DNA of 64,000 bases from Medicago truncatula (Eukaryota; Streptophyta; Magnoliopsida; Fabales; Fabaceae). The notes below the pieces were generated by a model. That model saw only the letters and a list, made by a program, of their open reading frames with translations. It did no database searches and was not told the DNA's origin. Numbering within the stretch: position 1 is the first letter of the stretch; each line of letters opens with the position of its first letter. This document shows positions 36,116 to 39,109 of this stretch, piece by piece. The position numbers and the translations under genes were made by a program. The stretch lies in contig NC_053046.1 of the NCBI RefSeq assembly GCF_003473485.1, positions 36,169,832 to 36,233,831 on the forward strand, read 5' to 3'.

Positions 36116-36158
36116 AGCCCAATGGATTGGGCCTGAAAGTAAAACCCTAACTGGCCCA
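36116..36158 (+). promoter_or_regulatory. Telo-box and site II elements of a ribosomal-protein promoter
   Basis: AGCCCA (36116-36121), TGGGCC (36128-36133), telo-box AAACCCTAA (36142-36150) and GGCCCA (36153-36158) are packed into 43 bp, about 115-155 bp before the eL33 start codon. The telo-box plus TGGGCY site II pair is the known arrangement in plant ribosomal-protein promoters, bound by TCP and Myb-type factors in growing cells. Confidence 0.8.
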
Positions 36159-36271: not shown

Positions 36272-37362
36272 ATGGTTAAAGGACGACAAGGAGAACGTAT
36301 CAGGTTTCTCTTCTGTCCCTTCGATCTATACCTTTCAACACTTTTGATTTTATTGTTTCGGTTTTACTAATCATGTTATTTTGATTTTGTGTTTTTAATC
36401 AGGCTTTATGTCAGGGGTACCGTTCTTGGTTACAAGAGGTACTTGTTTTTCTTCTCCATTTCGATTTATTTGCAGTATTTATAGGTTAATTAAATCTAAT
36501 TTGGGTTTAAGATTATATATAATTTTTTTCTTATGTTGTTTATTGGATTTTGATTTTGATCTGTTTAGCTGAACTTTATTTGTGCTAAGAAATGTTGAAT
36601 GTTGTTTTAGCTGGACTATGCTGTTCTTTGAATTTTATAGTTCATGTTAGATATTAAAGTTTTCTTAAGTACATTCAGCATCTAATTTGTGTTTTTGATA
36701 TATAAATTTAAGAGCAAAGACTCAATTTGGTCCTTCACAAATTTTGCATTATCACAGTAGGGACAATCAGTCCGCCTGTTATATGATTACTGATTTGGGT
36801 ACTATTTTTTGTATGGAGTTAAATTAACCGGCCGGAAAATAATGAAATGAGACCAAATTCGATCTTCACTCTAAATATAAATATATAATTTTTCCTCTGT
36901 CGGTGCATAATGGGTCTCCGCTTGTGTATTTTGGTTTTGATGTTGGTCTGGTTTGCTGGGGATTATTTGTGCTAAGAAATTGGTAATGCTGTTATAGGTC
37001 CAAGGTTAATCAATACCCAAACACCTCTCTTGTTCAGATCGAGGGGGTAAACACCAAGGAAGAAGTTGCATGGTATGCTGGGAAGAAATTGGCATACATT
37101 TACAAGGCTAAAGTGAAGAAGGATGGTAGCCACTATCGCTGCATTTGGGGTAAGGTTACCAGGCCTCATGGTAACAGTGGTATTGTTCGTGCAAAGTTCA
37201 AGTCTAACCTTCCACCAAAATCAATGGTAATTTTTAAAGACATATAAATGGTTTGTTTTTTTCTTTTTCACAAACTGTTTTATTGTTTCTGAAAGTTTTG
37301 GTGTTGATTTGTTTGTGCAGGGAGCCAGGGTTAGAGTATTTATGTATCCAAGCAATATATAA
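36272..37362 (+). CDS. 60S ribosomal protein eL33 (L35a), four coding exons
   Basis: Structural protein of the cytosolic large ribosomal subunit. Exons: 36272-36303, 36403-36438, 36998-37226 and 37321-37362 (TAA at 37360). The joined frame gives 112 residues, the usual plant length. It starts [20 protein letters not shown] and contains [36 protein letters not shown] and the C-terminus VFMYPSNI, all diagnostic. The start is the conserved family Met; an in-frame ATG 25 codons upstream (36197) is also open. The stop codon is one base from a GT donor (37364), so a 3'UTR intron to about 38932 follows. That spacing is under 50 nt and would not be expected to trigger nonsense-mediated decay. Expression should be controlled by the telo-box/site II cluster. 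Confidence 0.95.
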
Positions 37363-37802
37363 GGTAATTTTACCATTTTATTAATGTTTGTTAACTTTAT
37401 ATATAGATTATTGATTGCTGAATGTTGAATTAATATGCTTTTCTGAACACGTGGTTTACGATTTTTAGGGCCATTATTATGATTCAATTGTTGACAATCC
37501 AAATAATCATATTATTAATTTTGCTATGTTAGATACGTTGTACCGATTCCACTGAATCAACTTGAAGTCATAAGTTCTCCCATTTCTGTTTCTCTAGAAT
37601 TGTCTTGTGCAGTATGTTTTTTAATTATCCATGTGTGTCTTAGTTTGTTGTGCATTGTGCTATTTTCACGGTGTATATAGTGGTTGTATTAATCATAAAA
37701 TTGTTTCTTTTATTTCTTAATACCTCAACTGATTGTTTATATTATTGGCTTTCTTTGGTGAAAGCTGAAAATTAATCTTTTGATATCTTTCTGGAAAACA
37801 AA

Positions 37803-37939
37803 CTGCACACAGATCATCTTGGGAACAAGGTTTATAGTTTCTAAGATTTTATGTGTGCGGATAGTAACTATAAAGCCTTTCTGCTTGAACCTTCTCCTCC
37901 ATGTATGGAGATGTGTTCCAATAAAACTGGCTTACAAAT
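37803..37939 (+). ncRNA. Candidate H/ACA box snoRNA, copy 1
   Basis: Two hairpins, hinge and tail as in H/ACA RNAs. Hairpin 1 closes with GCACACA/TGTGTGC and has an upper stem CTTGGGAAC/GTTTCTAAG with all nine positions paired (G-T wobbles allowed). The H box ATAGTA (37861-37866, ANANNA) follows. Hairpin 2 closes with AAGCC/GGCTT, has an inner stem TTGAAC/GTTCCAA and an apical CTCCA-TGTA-TGGAG. The ACA box is at 37934-37936, three bases before the likely 3' end. Guide pocket strands in hairpin 2 would be TTTCTGC and TAAAACT; target not identified. Confidence 0.7.
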
Positions 37940-38022
37940 TTATCTAGCAAGTATTGTGTCTAAATTTTTTATTTCAATTTGATAGATAAAAATTGATCAT
38001 TTGTTACTCTGTCAAAAGAAAA

Positions 38023-38174
38023 TCGCACTTAGTTCTTCTTGGTAACATTTGTTTTAACAAAAATTGTTTCTAGGATTTTATCTGTGCGTATATCAAGTGA
38101 AAAACCATTCTGCTTGAGACGTCTCTTGTATCTATGGAGATGGAGATGTGCTCCAATGTAATTGGCTCACATTC
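38023..38174 (+). ncRNA. Candidate H/ACA box snoRNA, copy 2
   Basis: Same architecture as copy 1. The outer stem of hairpin 1 is GCAC/GTGC; its upper stem keeps pairing although bases differ (CTTGGTAACA with TGTTTCTAGG). H box ATATCA at 38090-38095. Hairpin 2 has TTGAG/CTCCAA and an outer CCA/TGG. ACA box at 38169-38171. Pocket strands ATTCTGC and TGTAAT differ from copy 1 mainly on the 3' side. Confidence 0.68.
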
Positions 38175-38283
38175 TTATTTGGTTCTGCTTGAGCCTTTAA
38201 CCTTATATTGTCTGTTTTCTCTCCTTATTTCTGTTTTATAAAAATCAAAACTGATTGTTTGATCTCTTTCTGGAGATCCAATA

Positions 38284-38427
38284 CTGCACTTAGTTCTTCT
38301 TGGTAACATTGTTTAACAAAAATTGTTTCCAGGATTTTATCTGTGCATATAGCAAGTGTAAAACCTCTCTGCTTGAGGCTTCTCTTTTATTCATGGAGAT
38401 GTTCTCCAATGTGACTGGCTTACATTC
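38284..38427 (+). ncRNA. Candidate H/ACA box snoRNA, copy 3
   Basis: Closest to copy 2. Hairpin 1 closes GCAC/GTGC and its upper stem is CTTGGTAACA/TGTTTCCAGG. H box ATAGCA at 38349-38354. Hairpin 2 has TTGAG/CTCCAA. ACA box at 38422-38424 in GGCTTACA. The outer stem of hairpin 2 is weaker than in copy 1 (AACC against GGCTT), so this copy could be less stable. Confidence 0.65.
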
Positions 38428-39109
38428 CTGAAAAATTAATTTATAATGTTATGTAAAAGCTCTGCTTACTTCTTTTGCACATAGAAAGATAGAGGGTGTG
38501 ATTGGTTTTTGTTTTCACACCTCATTTGGTAAATTGGTTTGCTTAATCTTGTTATTTGCTTGTTGGTTTTTTAATTAAAGTATATATTGATTCCTTACAT
38601 TGAGATTATAGGTTTTAGATCATTTCTTGTTAGTTGGTGCCTGTTCTACATTTCTGTATAGTAGTATCTGTTCTTTCATGGGAGCATCTTAACTTAAGAC
38701 TAATTGAGGTTATTCCACACGCTAACTAGCAAAGTGAATTATTTCTTTGATGTACCAATTTATTATCATTAGGGCACTTTATAATAACTGAGAATGTTAA
38801 TGCTATCATCCTCTTATTTTAGAAATTGCATGCTTAATCTTTGCATTTTGGTACAATGCCCTTGAATCATTTTCTTAATCAATTAACCTTGAAGTTGTTT
38901 GCCTAATCTTTGCATTTTGGTTGTCTTTGCAGATTTTCAGCGGTACCTACAGCCAGCAGTTGGATAGGTCATTGAAGTTTTTATTCATCCTGTTTTGGTT
39001 GTCTTTGCATTTTGGTTGTCTTTGCATTTTGGTATTTTTTTTTGTATCTCTGAACAGAATTTCCTTTTTCTAGGATGTTGAATTCGAATGTTTTTATTCG
39101 TGTTTTGTT

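Follow-up and report, generated by a model that had tools for sequence, protein, structure and literature searches.

Introduction

In box H/ACA guide RNAs, the pocket is expected to lie 13–17 nt before the H or the ACA box. Two human guides of this class are the closest points of comparison for the predicted targets of the locus described here: SNORA21, which we take to be the guide for 28S Ψ4470/4471 in the older numbering (4441 in PMC6182160), and ACA65, presumably the RNA that also goes by the name SNORA79. ACA65 guides both Ψ31 and Ψ86 of U6 (PMC7960923, in excerpt). In plants, most hosts of intronic snoRNAs encode ribosomal or ribosome-biogenesis proteins, and Telo-box and Site II motifs have been described for plant ribosomal-protein and snoRNA genes (excerpts of PMC4660826). 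By the count of PMC8351944, domains IV and V of Arabidopsis 25S rRNA have 13 mapped pseudouridines that lack a known snoRNA, and guides with a clear target are therefore useful.

Here we describe three units that would be tandem duplicates of a box H/ACA snoRNA, forming a small cluster in the predicted 3'UTR intron of an eL33 gene of Medicago truncatula. The array resembles the plant intronic H/ACA clusters described in the excerpts of PMC4660826 in its two hairpins, its ANANNA hinge, its ACA three nucleotides from the predicted 3' end, its ribosomal-protein host and the Telo-box and Site II motifs upstream. It departs from them in being built of homologous copies, in lying in a 3'UTR intron and in matching no Rfam family at threshold. 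Its predicted U6 site is the equivalent of the Ψ31 served by human ACA65, but its second pocket is predicted to face large subunit (LSU) rRNA and not a second U6 site. The predicted LSU rRNA site is that of human SNORA21. Unlike either human RNA, the array leaves Rfam silent at threshold.

Results

An eL33 gene with a predicted intron directly after its stop codon

The window, by which we mean the whole 64-kb stretch of DNA that was analyzed (C5:36169832-36233831, read on the + strand), comes from a genome of 430 Mb. Joining the eL33 exons of the window by eye gave a protein assigned to Ribosomal_L35Ae (Pfam, E 1.8e-44), and its best match among solved structures is a chain named eL33y (9h3g), which covers residues 1–112, all 112 of them. 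The host features are the following.

36116..36158, + strand: putative promoter elements of the host gene; one Telo-box, AAACCCTA at 36142, and three Site II motifs, at 36116, 36128 and 36153
36272..37362, + strand: eL33 (RPL35A) coding region with introns; ATG at 36272, stop TAA at 37360-37362
37364..38932, + strand: predicted 3'UTR intron; donor AG/GTAATT one base past the stop, acceptor TTTGCAG/ATTTTC ending at 38932

The putative acceptor at 38932 appears to be of fair quality, and the Telo-box and Site II motifs upstream of eL33 are candidate promoter elements; over both strands of the window, matches to the two motifs number 6 and 22, respectively. Short direct repeats around TTTGCATTTTGG were seen at 38827-39040, near the predicted acceptor.

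A protein search of the genome returned at least six eL33 matches, namely the window copy, four on C7 and one on C4. None of the four C7 copies has a stop inside the matched exon, and in 4/4 of them, the paralogues in which the last coding exon was found, AG/GTAA follows the stop directly; when stop contexts were compared, no end was located for the C4 copy. Because the donor recurs in all four C7 paralogues, an intron directly past the eL33 stop looks ancestral. The sequence-only reading had placed the units in an intron of the 3'UTR, immediately past the eL33 stop codon, and the Pfam and 9h3g chain matches, the donor and acceptor, and the donors of the paralogues support it on both the host and the intron.

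The paralogues themselves merit brief comment. Those on C7 (L012-L015, G000:C7:50612476-50631737) stand in tandem, and the members of each pair, L012/L013 and L014/L015, are 10,843 bases apart with near-equal scores and identical stop contexts, pointing either to a recent duplication of 10.8 kb or to a duplicate in the assembly. The C4 locus (L016, G000:C4:63650273-63653572) holds an eL33-like stretch of 45% identity with three stop codons and is probably a pseudogene.

Three tandem units with H and ACA boxes

The intron carries three candidate H/ACA snoRNAs.

37803..37939, + strand: copy 1; H box ATAGTA at 37861-37866, ACA at 37934-37936, canonical two-hairpin free fold
38023..38174, + strand: copy 2; H box ATATCA at 38090-38095, ACA at 38169-38171
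38284..38427, + strand: copy 3; H box ATAGCA at 38349-38354, ACA at 38422-38424

All three had been proposed from the sequence, and each was recovered with its boxes in place and with start-to-start spacings of 220 and 261. An ANANNA motif and an ACA followed by three nucleotides are present in 3/3 units. Pairwise identity between units is 76, 77 and 87%, as against 54–69% for their 85-nt flanks in the same gapped alignment, and the flank values are near the random level (mean 62% for pairs of random intron 85-mers, up to 200 in number and some of them overlapping the units). Identity falls off downstream of the ACA. Copies 1 and 3 also share 74% identity over the 42 nt that immediately precede them (37761-37802 and 38240-38281), and the duplication may thus extend past the RNA on the 5' side.

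A 629-base query matched this locus only, across the genome, at E 0.001. In the window, a model built from the three units (R1) gave 11 matches: the units themselves, three on the - strand that overlap them (28.6, 21.3 and 18.8 bits) and five elsewhere that score at most 15.5 bits. R1 detected no fourth unit in the window. When applied to the five paralogue loci on C7 and C4, it found nothing up to E 1, and Rfam returned 0 matches in the same loci. The C7 loci extend about 1.4 kb beyond the eL33 stop, and within that distance the four keep the donor and show no similar RNA or hairpins. Given the single genomic match of the 629-base query and the silence of R1 and Rfam at the paralogues, the array seems, by DNA similarity and a three-sequence model, to be confined in this genome to the one eL33 copy.

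A covariance search with Rfam, which had been put forward as a check on the class, assigned none of 4227 families to the window at gathering threshold. On the intron, with E values up to 10 admitted, three weak matches appeared. Two are to H/ACA RNAs, yeast snR85 (RF01240; 20 bits, E 0.54, gathering 37) and human SNORA14 (RF00397; 16.9 bits, E 4, gathering 36); these are the best weak matches for copies 2 and 3 and fall far below gathering. The remaining one, to mir-276 (14.8 bits), was judged to be chance.

Copy 1 folds as a canonical H/ACA RNA

Free-fold z-scores are -5.62, -3.21 and -1.68 for copies 1, 2 and 3, with 0/200, 0/200 and 14/200 shuffled sequences, respectively, folding as well. 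Copy 1 adopts the textbook two-hairpin shape in its free fold (-43.6 kcal/mol). Both strands of the window were also scanned blindly with a descriptor that combines an ANANNA box, an ACA, two single hairpins of -6 kcal/mol or lower and a pocket 13–17 nt before each box. The scan yielded four candidates. Copy 1 scored -41.5 kcal/mol; the remaining three scored -17.8, -18.4 and -19.7, with an overlap between the second and third of these. In 20 shuffled 64 kb strands, the descriptor found 22 candidates, the best at -20.3. Copy 1 stands far above both sets, and the H/ACA identity first proposed from the letters is supported. Copies 2 and 3 were not among the candidates of this strict scan.

In both of these copies the 5' hairpin is firm, with pair probabilities of 0.65–1.0 that are mostly near 1. 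Their consensus 3' hairpin has pair probabilities of 0.00–0.02 (copy 2) and 0.02–0.59 (copy 3), and it competes with a longer-stem free fold that buries the ACA. Thus, two hairpins flanking an ANANNA hinge are found in the fold of copy 1, and only the 5' one is firm in copies 2 and 3. With 3' ends as predicted, the ACA is unpaired in the fold of copy 1, and copies 2 and 3 pair it when folded freely; RNAalifold likewise places it inside a stem, a result that speaks against the guide reading. The distances from pocket to box are 13 and 15 nt in copy 1 and 14 and 15 nt in copies 2 and 3.

Changes in stem bases between copies had been read as evidence for selection on RNA structure. With the structure of copy 1, itself one of the three sequences, as the reference for pairing counts, 86.7% of cells pair, as compared with 20–49.5% when the partner is slid. 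Two-sided changes affect 3/35 copy 1 pairs, a count reached by 62/500 column shuffles, and neither copy 2 nor copy 3 keeps the pairs at columns 1-67, 7-61, 8-60, 14-54, 21-47 and 82-144. As for the two stems that had been offered as examples, the lower-stem case consists mostly of copy 1 pairs that are missing in copies 2 and 3, and in the second case the changes that keep pairing are one-sided. The claim that stem bases change with pairing kept stands for the three two-sided pairs but not for the six broken ones or the one-sided second example. Since there are only three sequences, the structure comes from one of them and 62/500 shuffles do as well, covariation is no proof of structural selection here, and it was dropped as the main argument.

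The 3' pockets fit a site just before the A-loop of LSU rRNA

Pocket strands of the three units were taken from alignment columns. Units, boxes, geometry and pairing with the genome's own U6 and with a human 28S stretch were computed; in plant 25S, the target letters are presumably the same as those of the human stretch.

37878..37928, + strand: copy 1 3' pocket; left TTTCTGCTT at 37878-37886, right CAATAAAACT at 37919-37928; LSU rRNA, 8+4 pairs
38107..38163, + strand: copy 2 3' pocket; left ATTCTGCTT at 38107-38115, right CAATGTAATT at 38154-38163; LSU rRNA, 9+5 pairs
38366..38416, + strand: copy 3 3' pocket; left TCTCTGCTT at 38366-38374, right CAATGTGACT at 38407-38416; LSU rRNA, 7+5 pairs

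The core of the 3' pocket is invariant in 3/3 units (left TCTGCTT, right CAAT). With the human 28S letters, all three pockets fit CATTG-U-G-AAGCAGAA and leave exactly two target bases unpaired. Both this target and the U6 target below were picked by inspection, and each random trial scores the top site of a 6.1 kb i.i.d. target, which is no model of real rRNA; on that footing, random targets scored as well in 16/8000 trials for copy 1, 2/8000 for copy 2 and 30/8000 for copy 3, and because the three copies are related these scores are not independent.

The human 28S probe that holds the target stretch (PMC6502789, in excerpt) has the target U 27 nt before the A-loop U. Human Um4468 minus 27 nt is 4441, which places the target U at Ψ4441, a position listed at 87% (PMC6182160, in excerpt). 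The target of the 3' pocket is most likely the equivalent of this human 28S Ψ4441, just before the A-loop. In the numbering of PMC8053127, seen in excerpt (Um2922), the predicted plant site is U2895; the excerpts of PMC9483110 and PMC10281867 do not show the target 25S position.

In the genome's own assembly, an exact 25-mer of the presumed plant 25S target had 0 matches, and a eukaryotic LSU piece found only five, at 75–82%. The exact target pattern was also searched for in viral contigs (0) and in genome contigs (0 before the eukaryotic contaminant described next). Eukaryotic LSU rRNA is present on that contig, L003 (JAMFSA010000192.1), which is recorded as part of a Mucilaginibacter MAG and is probably contamination; as judged by eye, it has the target stretch with C in place of U at the same 27 nt spacing. 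A member of the viral collection, L002 (IMGVR_UViG_3300009564_000091), holds a 37-base stretch that we take to be typical of eukaryotic LSU rRNA, and for that reason it may be misfiled.

U6 snRNA as the predicted target of the 5' pockets in copies 2 and 3

38029..38083, + strand: copy 2 5' pocket; left TTAGTTCT at 38029-38036, right TTTTATCT at 38076-38083; U6 U26, 5+7 pairs
38290..38342, + strand: copy 3 5' pocket; left TTAGTTCT at 38290-38297, right TTTTATCT at 38335-38342; U6 U26

Copies 2 and 3 have one and the same 5' pocket, which fits GATAAAA-U-U-GGAAC of U6 with 7+5 pairs, one of them G-U, and exactly two unpaired bases. The U6 letters come from the same genome, in which a 39-base core occurs at 13 exact places; the 3/3 U6 loci that were fetched score 113.1 bits with the Rfam U6 model and are identical over 103 nt. 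The target U is U6 position 26, nine bases before U35, and on the human U6 letters as we know them it is equated with Ψ31. Human U6 Ψ31 and Ψ40 are both listed in the excerpt of PMC7960923, and their spacing matches that of U26 and U35, as would be expected if U26 is the equivalent of Ψ31. A plant U6 primer in print matches the start of the 39-base core (PMC3819348, in excerpt). In the random trials on 6.1 kb i.i.d. targets, the U6 score of the 5' pocket was reached in 55/8000, and no trial (0/8000) reached the two copy 2 scores jointly.

Altogether, 5/6 pockets match a site, the exception being the 5' pocket of copy 1, for which no U6 fit was found. Its left strand differs at 2/5 paired positions, one of them beside the unpaired bases, its right strand differs at the seventh position, and its lower stem is longer. 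The suggestion that the pocket strands differ, and that the copies might guide different sites, therefore applies to the 5' pocket of copy 1 only: the 3' core is common to all three units, and copies 2 and 3 share their 5' pocket. A search for the CAB box of Cajal-body guides (scaRNAs), UGAG in an apical loop, found TGAG nowhere in copy 1, at 38115 in copy 2 and at 38374 in copy 3. In both cases it occupies the final base of the left pocket strand together with the foot of the upper stem, outside any loop. Guides for U6 can be nucleolar. Neither a plant guide for the U6 site nor the array is mentioned in the articles examined, which came from literature searches aimed at other questions.

Discussion

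We consider it quite likely that the three units are intronic H/ACA guides for the 25S site and, in the case of copies 2 and 3, for U26 of U6. As predicted from boxes, geometry and pairing, the copies are probably real guides of a known class. Pol II would transcribe them together with the host mRNA, splicing and trimming would release them, and a dyskerin/Cbf5 core, which in this class comes with Nop10, Nhp2 and Gar1, would bind them as it does other members of the class. The 3' pocket would then pair with 25S and expose the U of CATTG-U-G-AAGCAGAA to pseudouridylation; in copies 2 and 3, the 5' pocket would expose U6 U26 in the same way. The class is an ordinary one, intronic H/ACA snoRNAs in a ribosomal-protein gene; what is noteworthy is the pair of rRNA and U6 targets and the asymmetry between copies. 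Given the shared transcript, the coupling of ribosomal-protein and modification output that had been put forward earlier is plausible, although putative.

The most serious competitor to guide function for all three units holds that copy 1 is the only working snoRNA, copies 2 and 3 being duplicates in decay with a misfolding 3' hairpin. The failure of both in the descriptor scan, the low probability of their 3' hairpin and the modest z-score of copy 3 (just -1.68) are what decay would look like, but their 5' hairpins fold with most pair probabilities near 1, their H and ACA boxes are intact, and their pockets still fit U6 on the 5' side and rRNA on the 3' side with 9+5 and 7+5 pairs. On balance, we regard decay as unlikely.

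Far less probable is a role of the repeats as hairpins that control splicing or retention of the 3'UTR intron. The units do lie inside the predicted intron, 2/3 of them fold stably, and copies 2 and 3 have alternative folds. Against such a role stand the correct H/ACA box distances, the pocket geometry and the fits to uridines that are pseudouridylated in human, and the four eL33 paralogues keep the donor with no such hairpins within 1.4 kb. A functionless chance tandem duplication of AT-rich intron DNA seems to us the least probable explanation of all, even though the silence of Rfam at threshold and a covariation signal no better than shuffles are both consistent with it. Identity is far higher within the units than in their flanks, the descriptor score of copy 1 is far beyond anything in 20 shuffled strands, and the target fits are seldom equalled in the random trials.

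Returning to guide function for all three units, copy 1 has the best 3' hairpin but is without a U6 fit, and a division of the two jobs among the copies may therefore have begun. A more ambitious version, which is possible but which we hold with some doubt, is that two conserved pseudouridines of the plant, one in the 25S segment preceding the A-loop and the other at U6 U26, are both guided by this array, with its copies in the course of splitting the work: copy 1 would have dropped its U6 pocket and stiffened, and copies 2 and 3 would keep the U6 pocket as their 3' hairpin weakens. If the assignment is true, ribosome and spliceosome would alike be served with modification from one ribosomal-protein intron, and a guide with one rRNA arm and one U6 arm would tie modification of a splicing RNA and of the ribosome to a single transcript. 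The tandem copies make such a division of labor directly testable.

Elsewhere in the window, a - strand open reading frame at 18455-20314 matches DUF4283 and a zinc knuckle, and the beginning of a reverse transcriptase is matched at a score narrowly under its cut-off; judged by these domain matches, it is a LINE-like retroelement.
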